From positions 1-49,809 of the forward strand of contig CAMDOA010000015.1 in the NCBI GenBank assembly GCA_945903305.1: a stretch of DNA of 49,809 bases. Direction: 5' to 3'. Each line of letters starts with the position of its first letter. The stretch's first letter is position 1. Source of the stretch: Chitinophaga pinensis. GTDB lineage: Bacteria; Bacteroidota; Bacteroidia; Chitinophagales; UBA10324. The notes under the pieces are model-generated. The model ran no database searches and was not told the origin of the DNA. It saw only the letters and a list, made by a program, of their open reading frames with translations. A program made the translations under genes and the position numbers. Positions 10,782 to 20,013 of this stretch are shown here, piece after piece.

Positions 10782-11750
10782 ATGAAACTATCAGTAGAAG
10801 AAGCGATCAAAATTTTATACAAAGGGGGTGTCATTGCCATTCCCACTGAAACTGTTTACGGTTTAGCGGCTGATGCGACAAATAAAAAAGCCATTGAACG
10901 GATTTATGAAATAAAAAATCGCCCAACTGACAATCCGCTCATCTGTCATTTTTATTCTTTTGTTCAGGCAAAACCATTTCTGGCTTCTTATCCAAAATAT
11001 GTTGAGATGTTGGTCAATCAATTTACTCCGGGGCCGGTCAGTTTTTTATTGCCATTAAATATGCCTTCATCTTTACAAGCAGCCACACGAGGTTCGGCGC
11101 ATGTTATTATTCGCATTCCGATGCATGAATTATTATTGAAACTGCTTAAAAAAATTTCATTTCCATTAGCCGCACCATCAGCCAACACATCAGGAAAATA
11201 CAGTGCTACCACTGCTGAAATGGTGGAAGCTGATTTAGGAAAAAAAATTGAGGGAGTTTTAGATGGTGGTGCAAGTTCTATTGGTTTGGAATCAACTATT
11301 CTCGATTGTCGAAACAAAGATGAAATCAAAATTCTTCGACCGGGGGTAATTGGCAAGGAAGATATTGAATGGTGTTTGCGAAATGAAAATGTAAAAGTGA
11401 TTGATACTTTATCCTTTGAGCTTGCAACTCCCGGAAGCAAGTACAAACATTATTCGCCTGCAACACCAGTTTTTCAAATTCATACTGAAAGTGAAATTCC
11501 TGTTAAAAAAAATATTGCAGTAATTGGATTTGAAGAAGATTTTAAAAATGTTTCTTCCAGTGAAAATCTGAAATTTATTTCATTGGGTTCAGAAAATAAT
11601 TTATCTGAAGTTGCTTCATCGCTATACCGAAAAATGTTTGAACTGGATGCGCTGAAAGTTTCAGAAGCGTACCTGTTACAAAGAGATTTTGGAAATTCAG
11701 CAATCGGAAAAGCAATTTCCAATCGCCTCGAACACATGCTATCGCGATGA
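10782..11750 (+). CDS. sua5: L-threonylcarbamoyladenylate synthase (Sua5/YrdC/YciO family)
   Basis: Makes threonylcarbamoyl-AMP from threonine, bicarbonate and ATP, the first step of t6A37 modification of ANN-decoding tRNAs. The protein is 322 residues. The YrdC-like domain occupies about 1-200, with GVIAIPTETVYGLAADA near 15-31, the K-N-R..DNPLI substrate-site stretch near 45-55, and SAN in the APSANTSGKYSATT segment. The C-terminal Sua5 domain (about 215-322) ends in the conserved NSAIGKAISNRLEHM-like tail. It therefore belongs to the long Sua5 type rather than the short TsaC type. It is the last gene of a probable TPR-GumN-sua5 operon and overlaps the convergent SET-domain gene by 12 bases. 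Confidence 0.95.
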   Translation: MKLSVEEAIKILYKGGVIAIPTETVYGLAADATNKKAIERIYEIKNRPTDNPLICHFYSFVQAKPFLASYPKYVEMLVNQFTPGPVSFLLPLNMPSSLQAATRGSAHVIIRIPMHELLLKLLKKISFPLAAPSANTSGKYSATTAEMVEADLGKKIEGVLDGGASSIGLESTILDCRNKDEIKILRPGVIGKEDIEWCLRNENVKVIDTLSFELATPGSKYKHYSPATPVFQIHTESEIPVKKNIAVIGFEEDFKNVSSSENLKFISLGSENNLSEVASSLYRKMFELDALKVSEAYLLQRDFGNSAIGKAISNRLEHMLSR

Positions 11751-12236
11751 TTTCTTCGGGTGATGATGCGGCTCCACTTTTATAATAATTTTTTTATGAG
11801 CTGCTTTTGCTTTTTCCTCAGCCCGCTTCTTTTTCTTTTGGGCCTTAATACTTTCTATCCATGGCAACCAATAATCAGACCCGTACCAAACAAAAATTTC
11901 TTCCCCTGGTTTTATGTGACGGCTTGCAATAATATATGACCTGCGATTGCGCACTGCATAGTAACTGTTGTTTCTGCAACCTTTTTTCCGCGTTAATCCG
12001 CGTGCATCATTTGCATAGCGCGCCAGGTTTTTGGGTTCGGCATATGCATCAATGCATTTATACTTTGTGATGTAAAAAACATAACCGCCCTTTCCATCAT
12101 CATCGCGTTTTTCGGCTTCGGCCCAGGTGATAATTTCGCCTATGTATTCTAAAACCTTATCGTCTTTTTTAATTAATGTATCAGTGTACAAACCCATGCC
12201 TGCCTCGGGTATCTGACTCTTTTTAACAAATAACAA
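11739..12236 (-). CDS. SET domain-containing protein (predicted lysine methyltransferase)
   Basis: The SET fold is recognisable in this 165-residue protein: an N-terminal strand with GMGLYTD, then YIGEIITWAEAEKR, YVFYITKYKCIDA, an ARYANDARG segment in place of the eukaryotic NARFxNHSC motif, and a C-terminal EEIFVWYGSDYW that supplies the catalytic-tyrosine-type motif. The tail is strongly basic (many Lys, then His-rich). The start is TTG because the first in-frame ATG would remove the conserved first strand; no in-frame ATG is available upstream. SET proteins in bacteria can methylate ribosomal or other basic proteins; here the target is unknown. The gene is convergent with sua5 and overlaps its 3' end. 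Confidence 0.82.
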   Translation of the reverse strand: MLFVKKSQIPEAGMGLYTDTLIKKDDKVLEYIGEIITWAEAEKRDDDGKGGYVFYITKYKCIDAYAEPKNLARYANDARGLTRKKGCRNNSYYAVRNRRSYIIASRHIKPGEEIFVWYGSDYWLPWIESIKAQKKKKRAEEKAKAAHKKIIIKVEPHHHPKKSSR

Positions 12237-12409: not shown

Positions 12410-12511
12410 TTAAAGCAAGTCAATGCTTTATGGCTAAAATAAAACAAGGTTTCAGAAAGATTGAAGACATTAATTCAGAATCATTTAGGTTTGTTTGCAT
12501 TCAATTCAAAT

Positions 12512-13210
12512 ATGACTGTGCAAGAAAATTTAACTACACTAAATATTAATCCCGTATTGGAAGAAAGCTGGAAACAAGTGATGAAGGAAGAATTCACCAA
12601 GACTTATTTCCTAGAACTGAAAAAATTCTTGCTGCAAGAAAAGGCGGAAGGACAAATTTTGTATCCTGCAGGTTCGTTAATATTCAATGCCTTTAATCTC
12701 ACGCCATTTAATGATGTAAAAGTTGTGATACTAGGGCAAGACCCCTATCATGGTGATGGTCAGGCACATGGCTTGTGTTTTTCAGTTCCTGATGGAGTGA
12801 AGCCGCCACCATCGTTACTAAATATTTTTAAAGAAATTAAATCCGACTTAGGAAATGAAATTCCTGTACTTGGAAATTTAGAACGATGGTCAAAGCAAGG
12901 AGTGTTATTGTTGAATTCGTTGTTGACTGTTTGTGCCAATCAACCTGCTTCGCATCATAAAAAAGGTTGGGAACAGTTTACTGATAAAGTGATAGAAACC
13001 ATTTCGAAAGAAAAATCAGGAGTGGTGTTTTTGTTGTGGGGGCGATTTGCGCAGGACAAAGAATTGCTGATTGATCATTCAAAACATTTTATTCTGAAAG
13101 CCGCACATCCATCACCATTGTCATCATACAACGGTTTTTTTGGTTGCAAACACTTTTCTAAAACGAATGAAATTCTGCTACAACAAAAAAAGGCAGCTAT
13201 TAACTGGTAG
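12512..13210 (+). CDS. ung: Uracil-DNA glycosylase, family 1
   Basis: Removes uracil from DNA as the first step of base-excision repair. With the ATG at 12512 the protein is 232 residues, the usual family length. An earlier in-frame TTG at 12461 would add an unlikely 17-residue extension. Visible motifs are GQDPYH with the catalytic Asp77, the PPPSLLNI stretch (Pro-rich loop), LLNSLLTV, VVFLLWGRFAQ, and the leucine-intercalation loop HPSPLSSYNGF with His199. All catalytic residues of the E. coli-type enzyme are conserved. Its 3' end overlaps the convergent DUF4199 gene by 11 bases. Confidence 0.96.
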   Translation: MTVQENLTTLNINPVLEESWKQVMKEEFTKTYFLELKKFLLQEKAEGQILYPAGSLIFNAFNLTPFNDVKVVILGQDPYHGDGQAHGLCFSVPDGVKPPPSLLNIFKEIKSDLGNEIPVLGNLERWSKQGVLLLNSLLTVCANQPASHHKKGWEQFTDKVIETISKEKSGVVFLLWGRFAQDKELLIDHSKHFILKAAHPSPLSSYNGFFGCKHFSKTNEILLQQKKAAINW

Positions 13211-13697
13211 TTGATTTTTTAGACCTGACAAAAGCCGATATAACGAGGGATACAAATAACCCGGCAATCATAGTACCTCCTGATTCAGCTGTAACCTGAC
13301 CCATAGGCGAAAAATAAGCGCGGGCATTTTCTTCAACCTGTTTAATTTCTTCAGGCGATTTTTTTTGCTTGATCATTTCATTTTGAAATTGGGCAACCAT
13401 TTTTTCTTTTCTGTTTGTATCCACAACACTATTGAAAACATAGGCATTTATCCCCATCATCAGGGCAACAACAAAACAAATAACCATTCCGCTATAAAAG
13501 GATTTTCCAAAAAATAATATTCCATTATTTATTGATCTGATCTCCCGAACACCCATGTAAGTACCTGTTGCTAATAATAAAATTCCGATATATGCGCTGT
13601 ATTGCCCAAAAGTTTTATCGGGCCATCCCATATAAAATTCAAAGGCTCGCCATATCACACAAGCCATTCCGGTTAACATTCCAAACTTCAATTCCAT
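13200..13697 (-). CDS. DUF4199-family integral membrane protein
   Basis: This 165-residue protein has about four hydrophobic segments. Near the N-terminus (LKFGMLTGMACVIW), the second segment (SAYIGILLLATGTYMGV) and the third (SGMVICFVVALMMGINAYVF) match the layout of the Bacteroidota DUF4199 family. An Asn/Lys/Glu-rich hydrophilic loop follows, then a final helix near the C-terminus (GTMIAGLFVSLVISAFV). The ATG at 13697 aligns with the family start; a TTG at 13715 lies in a hairpin and is less likely. The function is unknown. The start codon directly follows the U-tract of a strong intrinsic terminator, so how it is transcribed is unclear. Confidence 0.72.
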   Translation of the reverse strand: MELKFGMLTGMACVIWRAFEFYMGWPDKTFGQYSAYIGILLLATGTYMGVREIRSINNGILFFGKSFYSGMVICFVVALMMGINAYVFNSVVDTNRKEKMVAQFQNEMIKQKKSPEEIKQVEENARAYFSPMGQVTAESGGTMIAGLFVSLVISAFVRSKKSTTS

Positions 13698-13740
13698 AAA
13701 AAAAATTTCCCGCAAAGAAACTTAAATTCTTTACGGGAAA
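13698..13740 (-). terminator. Strong intrinsic terminator abutting the DUF4199 start codon
   Basis: On the minus strand, TTTCCCGTAAAGAA (13740-13727) and TTCTTTGCGGGAAA (13719-13706) form a 14-bp stem with a single G-U pair and a 7-base loop. Eight Ts follow (13705-13698), and the next three bases are the ATG at 13697. It ends the transcript of the heme/copper protein gene whose stop is at 13763. The T-run is missing on the plus strand, so it works in one direction only. Confidence 0.85.
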
Positions 13741-13762
13741 AATTAAGATTACAAACTATTTT

Positions 13763-15337
13763 TTACTTAAAGATTATCAATTTGGAAGCAGCATTACTAT
13801 TTCCATTTAATTCTACTAAATAATTGCCCGATGGTAATTCTCCGATTGAATACTGAAACCGATAATTTCCTATTTCCATTTTTCGATTTGGAAATAATTG
13901 TTTTACAGTTTTTCCTAAAACATCTTTAATAATTAAGGAGTAGTTTCCGTTTTCTGAAATGGTAAATTCAGTAATCAGTTTATTTGTAGTCGGATTAGGG
14001 AAAAGTAATAAACCGGAATTTTGATCTTGCAATTCAGAAATTCCTGAGCTGATATCAACCAACGGCGAATTATCGATAACAATGTTTTCATCACCCGGAA
14101 AATAAATGGTGAACTCAAAAAAAGTAATCATCATTTCATTCAAGGTGCCTTCGCCGGCGTTAACTAATTGAGGCGGGTTGTTAGGGTTATTATAATTATT
14201 CAAAGTATTATCATAGGTAGCTACTGAATATAACATGGTTCCATTTGGCACCTTTATAATTTTTCTGAACTGATACAATCCCTGCCAGTGAAAATCCCAA
14301 TCGTTAATTGAAACAAATGGAATGGTATCGTTGGTGGGTGTAACACCAAACGCATTGATTGTTTTTCCGATTAAATGCATGTGCGGTGCAACACCTATAA
14401 AAGATAAATCATAAGGAATCGAAAATTGTTCATGCATGGTTTTAACAGTATTGGCCGGAATGTTTAATGGCCATTCCTGTAACACAGTTGGGTCAACATG
14501 ATTTAACGGCGCATTAAAAAACACAGGTCGGATAAATCCTGCACTTTGGTAAAAGAAATTAATTACAGAGTTATCCGACAGCCCGTTACTGCCCGGCGCG
14601 TAATGATACTGCACAACAATATCAGCGTTGGCAGGTATATTAATTCCCATGCCTGTTGGCAATACAAATGGTGTTGATCCTGGAACCCAGGCCCCAATTA
14701 GTTCAGCAGCAGAAACGCCAACACCCCCAAATCCTTCGTAGCCGGGATTTGGATCCTGAATATCCAATTGCGCACAACCTCCTGTTGTATCCCAATAAAT
14801 TAATGTGTGATGTACAATGGCCAGGTTACCCGGAATAAATTCAATTGCCTTCATCATCTGATCTGCTATATATCCTGATGGAATTACAAAACATCTGAAA
14901 TCATCTGTTGCTACCGCAACAGTATAATTGGGCAATTGCAAAACATCATCCGGAATACCAATTTGGCTACCGATTGGAAAGTTGGGTAATGAAGGTAAAT
15001 TCGCTGTATTTCCTTCCGGCATTCCACCACTAACCCAAGCATTAATTTTTTGAATGTCTTGCTGGCTTAACAAGCGTTCATGTGCTAATCTACTAAAGTC
15101 CGGATCAGGCGGCCAGGGTGGCATACGATGATTGGTTACTGCATCTGAAATTAAATTGCCGGAATTGAATGCATCAGTGTAAGTGATTAATTCGAATGGG
15201 GCAATATTTCCCGGACGATGACAACCCGTGCAATTCTCATATAAAATCAAAGCAATATCATCGCAAAAAGTGGGTGTTTGCGCAAATAAAAAATTGGAGC
15301 AAAACAAAAGAGCAAAAACTGAAAAAAATTTTTTCAT
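13763..15337 (-). CDS. Secreted cytochrome c / copper type II monooxygenase-like fusion protein with T9SS sorting domain (copy 1)
   Basis: The protein is 524 residues. A signal peptide ends near LFAQ. A c-type heme site CTGCH (Cys36, Cys39, His40) lies in a short cytochrome domain that also has the MPPWPP motif near 72, whose Met could be an axial ligand. The next region matches the peptidylglycine alpha-hydroxylating (copper type II ascorbate-dependent) monooxygenase fold. Its probable copper ligands are all present: His176-His177 and His245 for one copper, His319-x-His321 in APHMHLIG, and Met402 or Met403 in NEMMI for the other. A type A sorting domain (LFPNPT) closes it. A paralogue lies upstream at 15425-16966. 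The family hydroxylates C-H bonds; the real substrate and donor are unknown, and a purely electron-transfer or binding role remains possible. Confidence 0.88.
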   Translation of the reverse strand: MKKFFSVFALLFCSNFLFAQTPTFCDDIALILYENCTGCHRPGNIAPFELITYTDAFNSGNLISDAVTNHRMPPWPPDPDFSRLAHERLLSQQDIQKINAWVSGGMPEGNTANLPSLPNFPIGSQIGIPDDVLQLPNYTVAVATDDFRCFVIPSGYIADQMMKAIEFIPGNLAIVHHTLIYWDTTGGCAQLDIQDPNPGYEGFGGVGVSAAELIGAWVPGSTPFVLPTGMGINIPANADIVVQYHYAPGSNGLSDNSVINFFYQSAGFIRPVFFNAPLNHVDPTVLQEWPLNIPANTVKTMHEQFSIPYDLSFIGVAPHMHLIGKTINAFGVTPTNDTIPFVSINDWDFHWQGLYQFRKIIKVPNGTMLYSVATYDNTLNNYNNPNNPPQLVNAGEGTLNEMMITFFEFTIYFPGDENIVIDNSPLVDISSGISELQDQNSGLLLFPNPTTNKLITEFTISENGNYSLIIKDVLGKTVKQLFPNRKMEIGNYRFQYSIGELPSGNYLVELNGNSNAASKLIIFK

Positions 15338-15375
15338 AAAAAATTTAACGGCTGATTTTGAGGAATTATGATTTT

Positions 15376-15383
15376 CAAATATA
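15376..15383 (-). promoter_or_regulatory. Candidate -7 element for heme/copper protein copy 1
   Basis: On the minus strand TATATTTG (15383-15376) matches TAnnTTTG exactly, 39 to 46 bases upstream of the ATG at 15337. No TTG sits at the preferred distance. It suggests copy 1 can be transcribed separately from copy 2, although the two genes are only 87 bases apart. Confidence 0.4.
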
Positions 15384-15424
15384 GAAAAGGTTTAATTAAA
15401 ATTTGAAAATGCATTTTAAAACAA

Positions 15425-16966
15425 TTAATGAATTATGGCTATTCGTTTTACAATATTCAAATTATTGCTGTTAATTTTCAAAAAATAAATTCCTGATGTT
15501 AACTCAGACAGGTTAATAAGTTGTTGATGCGTGTCAGGTTTTATTAATAAATTACTAAAAATATTTTTAACCCTTGCTCCTGTAACACTATACACGGAAG
15601 CTGTAATTATTTGTTCATTAATAAAATTAAAATTCACAGTAAAATTTCCATTTGTAGGATTCGGATAAATTGAAATTTCACTTTCAAAAACAGATGTATC
15701 GGCTGAATAAAGAAAAATATTTTCATCCCCTTGTTTGTATGGCACAGTTAAAAAAGCGGTTACCATCATTTCATTATCACTTCCGTTTCCATAATAAACA
15801 GTTTGCGGAGGAGAATTCGGATTTAATAAATTAGAAGAAGTATTGTCGTAAGTAAATTCAGATTTTATAATCGTGTTCGTTGGCCACAGTACTAATTTTT
15901 CATAAACATAAAATCCCTGCCAATGAAAATCCCATCTGGGAATTGATACTAATTTCATAGTGTCTCCATTAGGTTGAACGGCATAAGTAACCGTATTTTT
16001 CCCAAGCAGGTGCATGTGGGGCATTACAGCGAGAACAGAAGTATTTATTGGGATAGTTGATTCAGCATGAAATGTTTTAATACTATCAGCAGGAATAACC
16101 AAAGGTCCATCAATGATATGTATAATATTGATTGTAGTTTTGAGTTTTACATTTCTGATATTAATACCACTTTGCAAAAAAATATTAAGTTTTGAACTAT
16201 CAACCAATCCAAAGCTAGCTTCAGGGTAATGCATCTGGACAATAATATCTGCATTAGCCGGAATCCGATAGCCGAAATTTGGAGGTAATATCAAGGGTGG
16301 TGATCCTGGAACCCAAATGGAAATTTTTTGTGCGTTATCAGTTCCTGCAAAAGAGCTGGCTGAATTATATCCCAGTTCAATTGTTGAATCATCCAGTTGC
16401 TGACACACTCCGCTTGTATCCCAAAAAATTACTGCATGATGGTCAATCAATTTATTTCCAGGTAAAAACTCAAAAGCTTTAATATATACCTCCTGCGAAA
16501 ACTGTGAAGGAATTACAAAACATCGATATTCATCTTGATTGGTAGTTAATGTATAAACAGGTAAATTAAACTGAACATCAGGAATACCGATTTCACTTCC
16601 TTCAATAAAAGTTGGCAATGGAGGAATTAATGATGTATCGCCTAAAGGCATACCAAATGAAACCCAATCGTTAATAGCTTGGATTTCTGAACTGGAAAGT
16701 ACTCGCTCGTTTAAAAAATGGTGGTAATCCGGATCGGGTGGCCATGGAGGCATTAACTTGTTATTCACGGCATCTAAAATCGAATTGGCTGCTCCAAAAA
16801 CTTCGTTATAATTTGTTAATGAAAACGGCGCAATATTATTCGGTCGATGACATTTTGTGCAATTTGAAAAAATTATTGGAGCAATGTGTTCACTAAAAGT
16901 TGGAATCTGTGCAATTAAAATATTGTTCCACAGAATTAAGATGATACTATAAAATATTTTATTCAT
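15425..16966 (-). CDS. Secreted cytochrome c / copper type II monooxygenase-like fusion protein with T9SS sorting domain (copy 2)
   Basis: This 513-residue tandem paralogue of the preceding protein has the same architecture. The signal peptide ends near LIAQ. CTKCH gives Cys36, Cys39 and His40, and MPPWPP is present near 72. The predicted copper ligands are conserved at nearly the same positions: His176-His177, His246, His317-x-His319 in MPHMHLLG, and Met400 or Met401 in DNEMMV. Both share a conserved DYRCFVIPS-type stretch near 147 and WDFHWQG near 346. Between the shared motifs the two diverge widely, so the duplication is old. A type A sorting domain (IYPNPT) is at the C-terminus. With copy 1 it forms a surface or extracellular redox pair. 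Confidence 0.88.
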   Translation of the reverse strand: MNKIFYSIILILWNNILIAQIPTFSEHIAPIIFSNCTKCHRPNNIAPFSLTNYNEVFGAANSILDAVNNKLMPPWPPDPDYHHFLNERVLSSSEIQAINDWVSFGMPLGDTSLIPPLPTFIEGSEIGIPDVQFNLPVYTLTTNQDEYRCFVIPSQFSQEVYIKAFEFLPGNKLIDHHAVIFWDTSGVCQQLDDSTIELGYNSASSFAGTDNAQKISIWVPGSPPLILPPNFGYRIPANADIIVQMHYPEASFGLVDSSKLNIFLQSGINIRNVKLKTTINIIHIIDGPLVIPADSIKTFHAESTIPINTSVLAVMPHMHLLGKNTVTYAVQPNGDTMKLVSIPRWDFHWQGFYVYEKLVLWPTNTIIKSEFTYDNTSSNLLNPNSPPQTVYYGNGSDNEMMVTAFLTVPYKQGDENIFLYSADTSVFESEISIYPNPTNGNFTVNFNFINEQIITASVYSVTGARVKNIFSNLLIKPDTHQQLINLSELTSGIYFLKINSNNLNIVKRIAIIH

Positions 16967-17193: not shown

Positions 17194-20013
17194 ATGAAAT
17201 CATTTTACTCAAAATCAATTTTTAATGCAATTATTATTTGCATTGCTTCATTAACCTTTTCGCAAAAAGGATTTGCTCAGATTACTGCAAACTTCAGTGT
17301 TGCGGGACCCAACATTGTTTGCCAGGGAAGTACGGTTGCATTTATTGATTCAAGTACCGGCAATCCTGTTTCGTGGCGGTGGTTTTTCCCCGGCGCATTA
17401 CCTGATTCTTCCAATCTGCAAAATCCAATGGTGCAATATTTTGCTCCGGGCATATGGGATGTAACATTAATTGTAACCGACGCAGGTGGAAATGCAGATA
17501 CAATGATAATGCCCGGTGCCATTACTGTTGATTTTATTATTCTGACTATGATGCCAACTAATCCGTTTTGTGGCAACAGCAATGGTTCCATTACTACAGC
17601 CATCAACGGCGGGTTTCCTCCATTCATTTATACATGGAGCAATGGTGCCACTACTCCAAATCTTACAAACCTTCCTCCTGGAAACTATAGTTTAACAGTG
17701 GTGGATGGAATGGGATGCATGACCACCCAAAGTATCTTTCTTCAAAACACCGGCAGCCTGGTAACCTTCGCCGAATCGCATATTGATGCCACTTGCGGAA
17801 ACAGTGATGGCAGTATAGATGTTGTTATGCAAGCCGGAAATCCACCCTATACTTTTTTATGGAGCAACGGAGCAACAACTGAAGACTTAACTAACCTCGC
17901 TGCAAATATTTATACTTTAACTATTACCGATGCGCTTAACTGTCCGGGTGGTGGACCAATAACCATTGCAAATATTAATGGTCCGGTAATATCGGCATCC
18001 TTATTAAATGCAACTTGCGGAAATGCAAATGGAAGCATTGATATGACAGCTACAGGTGGAGTTTCTCCATACACTTACATGTGGAGCAATGGTGCAACCA
18101 CTGAAGATTTATCGTCATTATTATTCGGAAATTATATTGTTACGGTTACGGATGTAAATTTTTGCATTGGAAACTTAAGTGTATTTGTTGCTGATTCAAA
18201 TGTGCTTTCGCTAACATCGGTCATGAGTAATCCTTCATGTGGTAATTCCGGAAATATTAATTTGACTTTAAGTGGCGGAACTCTTCCATACACTTATTCA
18301 TGGAACAATGGCTCTACTGATAGTGATTTAATAAATGTGCAGGCCGGAATTTATTTTGTTACGGTAACTGAAACCAGTGGCTGCTCATTGATACAATCTT
18401 ATAACTCTACTTTTTATTCGTATGTATATATCAGCAGCACCATTGCCAATTGCGGAAACAACGGAACCATGACTGCAACTATGTATAGCGGCAATGCACC
18501 TTTTAACTATTTGTGGAGCAATGGCGGAAACACACAAACCATTACAGGTCTTGCTCCTGGAAGTTATTCAGTTACTGTAACCGACAATGCCGGATGTGTA
18601 ACAACCGGACAATCATTTATGGCCTCATCGTGCAACAACATTATTGAAGGAACAGTTTTTAACGACCTCAATGCAAATTGCATTCAGGATTCAGGCGAAG
18701 TGGCTGTACAAGGGATTGTAATAACTGCAACTATTGGTTCAGGAAATTATTATGCCTACAGTAACAGCGATGGGTATTATCAAATCGCAACCAGTCAATC
18801 AGGTAGTTTTTCGCTTACTGCATCAAGCAGCGGACTTGTTTGCGGAAGTTTATTTGTCTGTACCGCAACCGGAATCGTTAATTTTCCTTCAGTGGGCGAT
18901 ACTGCTTCCAATAATAATTTTGGATTTGTTACAACAGGTGCAAATTTCGATTTGCGCTTACATCCAGGATGGAACAGTGCTAATCCGGGTTTCGATAAAC
19001 ATTACTGGATTTTGTATCACAATGCTGCTCCCATTGCTTTTACTGATACTGCTACCGTAGTATTTACTTACGATGCGAATCTTATTTACTTCGATAGTAT
19101 TGCGCCATTTCCGATTCATAATTTATCGGCACACACACTTACATGGGAAGTACCCAATGTTCCGAATCCAAGTTGGAACTGGCCCGATCGTTTGCATGCT
19201 TTCTTTCACACGCCCGCTTCACTTCCGATTGGAACTTTATTGCAAACCGAATATGATATTTATCCAACCAATGATGATTGCAACGCATCAAATAATCATC
19301 AGCAGTTTTCAGAAATACTTACCGGCTCTATGGATCCAAATTCAAAAGAAGTTTCTCCTGAAGGACCAATTACATTGCAGGATTCAGTGTTGACTTACAC
19401 CATCAATTTTCAAAACACGGGTAACGACACTACTAATTTTGTAATTTTAATAGATACACTTTCACAGTATCTTGATCCGACAACTGTTGTAAATATTGCT
19501 TCGAGTCATCCGTACGAATCTTTTGATATTTCAGGAACCGGAATTTTAAAATGGGTTTTTAATCCGATACTTTTAGTGGATAGTGCAACCAATGAACCGG
19601 AGAGCAAGGGATTTGTAAAATTCACCATTGAACAAAAACCAAACATAGCATGGAACACATTTATTGATAATACTGCTTTCATTTATTTCGATTACAATAC
19701 GCCCATACAAACTAATACAGCCACAAGTCATGTCTATGTTTGGGGAGCGGTAAATACTATTTCTGGTGAAAATATTTCTGTCTCTTCTTATCCAAATCCA
19801 TTTTCAGAATCAACAACAATTGTAGTGGATGGAATGAAGGGCGCATATGATTTCACAATCAACAATGTATTAGGAATGAAGATGAATGAATTGAAAAATA
19901 TAAATACTTCACAATTCAATTTCAATCGGAACGATTTACCTGCCGGAATTTATTTCTATTCCATTTCTGTTGAAGGAAAAAACAGAGCGAATGGAAAGTT
20001 GGTGATTGAGTGA
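17194..20013 (+). CDS. Large secreted PKD/SprB-repeat adhesin-like protein with T9SS sorting domain
   Basis: The protein is 939 residues, with a signal peptide ending near KGFAQ. A PKD domain lies at about 33-100 (SWRWFFPGALP core). Five SprB-type repeats follow at about 123-468, each beginning CGN and containing PYTYxWSNG and a closing YxVTVTD. Next is an SdrD-B-like/CNA-B-like segment beginning EGTVFNDLNANCIQDSGE near 485. Residues about 720-830 match a conserved DUF11-type beta-sandwich (DPNSKEVSPEG...TYTINFQNTGNDT). The C-terminus is a type A sorting domain (SYPNPFSES). SprB repeats are named after the mobile gliding adhesin of Flavobacterium johnsoniae, so a surface adhesion role is plausible, although this protein is far smaller than SprB. 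Its transcript ends at the hairpin at 20040. Confidence 0.87.
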   Translation: MKSFYSKSIFNAIIICIASLTFSQKGFAQITANFSVAGPNIVCQGSTVAFIDSSTGNPVSWRWFFPGALPDSSNLQNPMVQYFAPGIWDVTLIVTDAGGNADTMIMPGAITVDFIILTMMPTNPFCGNSNGSITTAINGGFPPFIYTWSNGATTPNLTNLPPGNYSLTVVDGMGCMTTQSIFLQNTGSLVTFAESHIDATCGNSDGSIDVVMQAGNPPYTFLWSNGATTEDLTNLAANIYTLTITDALNCPGGGPITIANINGPVISASLLNATCGNANGSIDMTATGGVSPYTYMWSNGATTEDLSSLLFGNYIVTVTDVNFCIGNLSVFVADSNVLSLTSVMSNPSCGNSGNINLTLSGGTLPYTYSWNNGSTDSDLINVQAGIYFVTVTETSGCSLIQSYNSTFYSYVYISSTIANCGNNGTMTATMYSGNAPFNYLWSNGGNTQTITGLAPGSYSVTVTDNAGCVTTGQSFMASSCNNIIEGTVFNDLNANCIQDSGEVAVQGIVITATIGSGNYYAYSNSDGYYQIATSQSGSFSLTASSSGLVCGSLFVCTATGIVNFPSVGDTASNNNFGFVTTGANFDLRLHPGWNSANPGFDKHYWILYHNAAPIAFTDTATVVFTYDANLIYFDSIAPFPIHNLSAHTLTWEVPNVPNPSWNWPDRLHAFFHTPASLPIGTLLQTEYDIYPTNDDCNASNNHQQFSEILTGSMDPNSKEVSPEGPITLQDSVLTYTINFQNTGNDTTNFVILIDTLSQYLDPTTVVNIASSHPYESFDISGTGILKWVFNPILLVDSATNEPESKGFVKFTIEQKPNIAWNTFIDNTAFIYFDYNTPIQTNTATSHVYVWGAVNTISGENISVSSYPNPFSESTTIVVDGMKGAYDFTINNVLGMKMNELKNINTSQFNFNRNDLPAGIYFYSISVEGKNRANGKLVIE
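17560..18597 (+). repeat. Five tandem SprB-type protein repeats
   Basis: Five degenerate repeats encode units of roughly 65-75 residues, each with a CGN start, an aromatic PY/PF-x-Y-x-W-x-NG core and a YxVTVTD-x-x-x-C end. The first three share the ATxDLTNL or ATTEDL wording closely; the fourth and fifth are more divergent. Confidence 0.8.

Follow-up and report, generated by a model that had tools for sequence, protein, structure and literature searches.

In an uncultured Bacteroidota species and in its five sequenced congeners, a terminator-like hairpin adjoins the start codon of the next gene, which encodes a DUF4199 protein, and as a matter of sequence this conserved fusion of hairpin and start is real with near certainty. 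Quite possibly the hairpin ends transcription of the upstream gene as an intrinsic terminator and shares its bases with the DUF4199 promoter, the 3′ arm of the stem doubling as a −7 element; we hold this reading tentatively. The features concerned, located in the window (the whole stretch of 49,809 nucleotides that was analysed), are as follows.

13763–15337, minus strand: gene preceding DUF4199 (524 aa), whose product ends in a T9SS C-terminal sorting domain and matches Cu2_monoox_C below threshold
13741–13762, minus strand: spacer of 22 nt from the upstream stop codon to the hairpin
13727–13740, minus strand: 5′ arm of the stem; six congeners agree at 11 of its 14 columns
13720–13726, minus strand: hairpin loop of 7 nt, 5 of 7 columns invariant in six congeners
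13712–13720, minus strand: candidate −7 element TTTCTTTGC, overlapping the 3′ arm, of putative function; consensus from selected passages of PMC6847099 and PMC9723704
13706–13719, minus strand: 3′ arm of the terminator stem, 14 of 14 columns invariant in six congeners
13698–13708, minus strand: predicted DUF4199 leader of 11 nt (AAA then T8), overlapping the U-tract, with a putative +1 at 13708
13698–13705, minus strand: U-tract (T8), abutting the ATG
13200–13697, minus strand: DUF4199 gene (PF13858, E 2.9e-22), 165 aa

Gene layout and the terminator-like hairpin

The DUF4199 ATG (13697–13695, minus strand) lies 65 nt beyond the stop codon of the T9SS-tailed gene, whose product matches PF18962 (E 7.6e-9) and, below threshold, PF03712 (E 8.8e-4, 19.2 bits against a cut-off of 23). 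This ATG is likely the real start, the homologous reading of DUF4199 beginning at MEL. A TTG located 18 nt upstream, which would open a 171-aa ORF, is in frame in L035 and L037 and out of frame in L033, L034 and L036, and was rejected because changes in T-tract length shift the frame in these three of the five congeners. At its other end the DUF4199 gene overlaps ung (12461–13210, plus strand) tail to tail by 11 nt, and a bacterial SET-domain protein (PF00856, E 9.3e-16) is encoded at 11739–12236. The region 13763–16966 holds two tandem genes 5′ of DUF4199 that are alike in domains (T9SS tail and weak Cu2_monoox_C), and this pair seems to be kept, judging by partial reading frames in L033, L035, L036 and L037.

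The hairpin comprises 14 pairs, including one G-U and five G-C, a loop of 7 nt and, directly after the stem on the minus strand, eight T. The original prediction of a 14-bp stem whose eight T run into the ATG at 13697 was thus correct both in coordinates and in sequence. The 73-nt region has a predicted folding energy of −21.4 kcal/mol, shuffled sequences averaging −9.2 (z −4.7, none of 200 shuffles equalling it), so that a stable G+C-containing stem, a short loop and a U-tract straight after it, as in intrinsic terminators, are all present in the sequence. On the plus strand, by reading, no T run follows the stem.

Such an arrangement is rare. Of 879 gene starts sampled in two genomes, four lie no more than 14 nt from the end of a terminator-like stem, namely those of the window locus, of its orthologue in G003, of a MauE/DoxX gene and at L074; the last was discarded as an abutting case, its start having probably been called too far upstream, with a signal-peptide-like start following (by eye). 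The dyad pattern CCCGNAAAGN{3,25}CTTTNCGGG occurs at a single place in the genome, and a dispersed repeat family matching this pattern was rejected. A search of seven genomes for CTTTGCGGG followed by ATG listed 31 matches, 30 of them with loci; among the matches listed, six are this locus and the other 24 contexts are, by eye, without a hairpin and T tract. Of 51 tandem terminators only two carry the hexamer CTTTGC in the 3′ arm, those of this locus and of its orthologue in G003, and of 48 convergent ones none does; the hexamer is therefore no general feature of terminators here.

Conservation among congeners and beyond the genus

Among 119 relatives searched for orthologues with more than 50% protein identity, six were found: five congeners (63–71%) and G010, which belongs to another genus (54%). 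The gene pair, the hairpin, the T-rich tract and the zero spacing to ATGGAATT are all retained in the five congeners found, so that a hairpin with abutting ATG is present in all six genomes of the genus; the tract itself is T7 or T8 in four of the five and AAT5 in L034. In G010 the hairpin is kept after the same upstream gene and 75 nt separate its T7 from a GTG start. The stem-to-ATG spacing, proposed earlier as a point to compare among relatives, is thus constant in the six genomes of the genus found and is not kept in G010.

Invariant columns among the six congeners amount to 30 of 35 in the hairpin, against 1 of 29 fourfold-degenerate sites in the DUF4199 gene; the genomes are therefore well diverged and the hairpin has been held in sequence as well as in pairing. 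Substitutions in the stem are confined to the 5′ arm, whose segment facing CTTTGC differs from GCAAAG in four of six genomes, with pairs broken in L033 and L037; this asymmetry between the arms amounts to about 4–5 events, counted by eye, and is weaker still given the tolerance of G-U pairs. In G010 the 5′ arm carries an extra base opposite CTTTGC and the 3′ arm ends in T rather than A. Pair counts revealed no position of the DUF4199 stem changed on both sides, and the case for the structure therefore rests on energy and conservation and not on covariation. As a yardstick, 12 orthologous terminator pairs were compared between G000 and G003: identities ranged from 0.50 to 0.96 and the DUF4199 hairpin ranked third at 0.86, the top-ranked pair being one that may lie in coding sequence. 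The conservation of the hairpin is high but not unique among these pairs. By reading, the MauE and LytTR terminators are not kept in sequence in G010 and the DUF4199 hairpin largely is.

The upstream gene is identical in kind in all seven genomes with a DUF4199 orthologue above 50% identity. The 3′ neighbour of DUF4199 varies among the six genomes where it is visible (the contig of L035 ends there), being ung in the window, an isocitrate-dehydrogenase-like gene in L036 and L037 (by eye) and other frames in L033, L034 and L008.

Outside the six congeners and G010, 21 more distant DUF4199 homologues were examined, L020, L025 and second matches within genomes being left aside. The seven closest homologues from the same family (L009–L015, 25–34% identity) all carry TA[CA]CTT[TCA]G ending 8–18 nt before the start, a motif found near the start in 6 of the 94 genes of the family that follow a gap of at least 50 nt. 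The motif was absent from the 14 weaker homologues, both the two from the same family (L022 and L031) and the 12 from other families, two of the latter carrying a different TAnnTTTG. A CTTTGC-type box before DUF4199 may thus be old within the family, a suggestion that was made after the hypothesis had been formed.

A candidate promoter within the hairpin and its rivals

A −7 box for the clade was learned from stretches of G000 and G003 (603 gene starts, leaving the window locus out and its G003 orthologue in). The resulting box, TAnnTTTGC, is concentrated 5–39 nt before the start and is in line with Flavobacterium and Bacteroides promoters as described in selected passages of PMC6847099, PMC9723704 and PMC7366714. 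When both the window locus and its G003 orthologue were left out (602 gene starts), TA..TTTGC was counted 46 times near starts against 2 and 3 times in control windows. The element TTTCTTTGC is this clade box with one mismatch (T for A at −11) and ends 13–14 nt before the ATG in the six congeners, inside the 5–39-nt peak; the G010 copy, at 87 nt from the start, falls outside it. It is the best-scoring −7-like site within 160 nt in L033–L037, and the window box is identical. The promoter positions T(−12) and T(−8)T(−7)T(−6)G(−5) are matched, with TTTCTTTG present in all six congeners and in G010.

The A at −11 is absent, all seven genomes having T, and this mismatch tells seriously against the promoter reading, A(−11) being nearly invariant in F. 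johnsoniae promoters according to selected passages of PMC6847099. Near starts, TTnnTTTG is not enriched (45 occurrences against 41 and 36 in controls), TTnnTTTGC is mildly so (15 against 9 and 5) and TT.CTTTG more clearly, although in small numbers (13 against 5 and 4). At the clade spacing of 18–19 nt for a −33 TTG or TTTG, the alignment reads TTT without the G; among 77 clear promoters of the clade, TTG at this spacing occurs just 13 times. The favoured A at −3 is also missing from the DUF4199 leader in all six congeners. A window promoter 5′ of the hairpin, TTG-N19-TAGTTTG, looked good by eye and was rejected, its TAGTTTG in the spacer not being kept in congeners; a sigma-70 promoter scan is not informative for this phylum.

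On the promoter-overlap reading, a polymerase arriving from upstream would make the whole hairpin, with the fold and sequence described above, and would be released on the U-tract. A separate polymerase on the same DNA would recognise TTTCTTTGC, in the 3′ arm, as a degenerate −7 box of the Bacteroidota sigma-A type and would begin DUF4199 transcription at about 13708, leaving a leader of 10–11 nt; this +1 was placed from the −7 box position (−12 to −5) given in selected passages of PMC9723704. The DUF4199 mRNA would then open with AAAUUUUUUUUAUG and, lacking the 5′ arm, would therefore contain no hairpin, whereas read-through RNA would carry a stable hairpin 7–8 nt before the AUG and should be poorly translated. 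In each of the six congeners the AUG is predicted to be more accessible in mRNA from the putative start (0.60–0.79) than in read-through mRNA (0.29–0.69); published passages on F. johnsoniae describe its translation as tuned partly by structure around the start. One 43-nt stretch would in this way serve as the end of one transcript and as core promoter element and leader of the next. In a more far-reaching version, upstream polymerases pausing and releasing on the U-tract would occupy the downstream start, and DUF4199 would be gated directly by how heavily the upstream gene is transcribed. The complete scheme, in which these 43 nt are terminator, core promoter element and whole leader, upstream traffic gates DUF4199 and only RNAs without the 5′ arm are well translated, is unlikely to hold in every part.

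The original prediction stands on two points: any transcript coming from upstream has to get through what looks like a strong terminator, and the terminator and the ATG leave no room for a promoter between them. Its list of options for expressing DUF4199 did not include a promoter overlapping the terminator itself, which we provisionally consider the best supported. A promoter inside the end of the upstream gene, which the list did include, finds no support: among the best four −7-like sites per locus in the 160 nt before the start, only the 3′-arm site recurs in the five congeners. Nor is a leaderless mRNA beginning at the ATG itself the preferred option, the predicted leader being 10–11 nt long.

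The main rival of promoter overlap, plausible although we doubt it, is read-through past a partial terminator within a two-gene unit: DUF4199 would be promoterless and made at a low level, and the terminator would, with the same reservation, fix how much of the secreted upstream protein is made relative to the downstream membrane protein. This would suit the constancy of the upstream gene in the seven genomes beside a differing 3′ neighbour, the absence of A(−11) and of the −33 TTG from the candidate promoter, and the existence of internal terminators that set gene ratios (selected passages of PMC9045158). It also gains from the MauE/DoxX gene (PF07291; L064:8604–9600, minus strand; orthologues L128–L133 and L135), a pair present in six of six congeners and G010 whose stem has changed while remaining paired and which has no constant −7 box. 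There the start directly follows the T tract in G000 and comes 2 nt after it in the other five congeners; the stem sequence differs between G000, the other congeners and G010, where the layout also occurs with the stem entirely changed, and the pairing stays (all by reading). Within the hairpin, four congeners carry TTTATTTG and G010 a perfect TACATTTG; neither is found in G000 or in G001, the latter having GTAATTTG. A near-identical layout thus recurs in the lineage and can persist across two genera. Because it does so without a constant −7 box, abutting does not require promoter overlap, and read-through stays alive. Against read-through, however, the 14-bp stem with T8 resembles a strong terminator, the hairpin 7–8 nt before the AUG lowers predicted AUG accessibility in all six congeners, and both CTTTGC and the conservation of hairpin sequence beyond pairing are left unexplained. 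A further locus, G003 L087:19196–19837 (minus strand; orthologues L189–L192 and L194), has a −7 box, TAC[AT]TTT[AG], in six of six congeners; by a count made by eye the box precedes the start by about 17–19 nt, and the leader after it is T-rich. The locus was rejected as an abutting-terminator case, since the box is conserved whereas the hairpin is complete in G003 only. A −7 box with a T-rich leader of about the length predicted for DUF4199 therefore does occur in the lineage. Separately, at about 18432–18471 of L064 (minus strand), just after tRNA-Ser (18472–18557), the T-rich tract of another terminator-like hairpin adjoins the ATG of a 104-aa ORF, a putative gene.

A regulated attenuator or a binding switch, in which a factor on the hairpin RNA or on the 14-bp DNA dyad controls passage into DUF4199, would account for primary sequence conserved in both arms and loop and for the survival of the hairpin in G010. 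It nevertheless appears improbable, and the earlier proposal that the stem acts as a switch gained little: the dyad, at the pattern searched, is found once in the genome and so gives no sign of a regulon, and no Rfam family reached its gathering score in 13000–14500, where Rfam 15 (E up to 1) returned only a weak mir-891 match (27.9 bits against a cut-off of 90) outside the element. We consider it equally improbable that a plain compact terminator touches the ATG by chance, with an unrecognised DUF4199 promoter upstream of the hairpin or in its 5′ side. A weak TAnnTTT[TC] at the 5′ foot of the hairpin in L034, L035 and L037 fits that account, as does the enrichment of TAnnTTTH near starts (152 against 94 and 96), but the site varies in position and sequence, and a start of this kind would put a complete terminator within roughly the first 45 nt of the mRNA.

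Comparison with known systems

If the promoter-overlap reading is true, a −7 box (TAnnTTTG) can make up one half of a stem, which allows compact Bacteroidota intergenic regions to use shared bases for terminator, promoter and leader; tools that predict promoters and terminators separately would class such genes as promoterless or as operon members. Across the titles, abstract openings and selected passages searched, no paper was found to describe this locus or a Bacteroidota terminator with a −7 box in one of its arms. Terminator-promoter overlap as a concept is already in print: selected passages of PMC7055797 describe an inter-operon overlap at tufB-secE of Salmonella that is reported to affect expression and, when interrupted, to reduce fitness. 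The two cases would be alike in that an upstream terminator overlaps a downstream promoter between tandem genes of conserved order; they differ in that the DUF4199 pair does not belong to that ancient gene cluster and would have a putative Bacteroidota-type promoter in the 3′ arm and the U-tract as leader.

The ABC importer operons of Clostridia (selected passages of PMC9045158) similarly have a terminator between co-directional genes and an extracellular upstream product; those internal terminators have lower U content and longer GC-rich stems, whereas here the tract is mostly T7–T8 and in contact with the ATG. The '3′-PT' transcripts of Flavobacterium psychrophilum, in the selected passages of PMC9723704, are a case of transcription past a predicted intrinsic terminator in a Bacteroidota; the DUF4199 locus is not known to give such a transcript. 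Set against Bacteroidota sigma-A(Bfr) promoters of the TTTG and TAnnTTTG type (selected passages of PMC6847099, PMC9723704 and PMC7366714), the candidate box is without A(−11) and a −33 element but resembles them in T(−12), in TTTG, in the C that follows and in its distance from the start.
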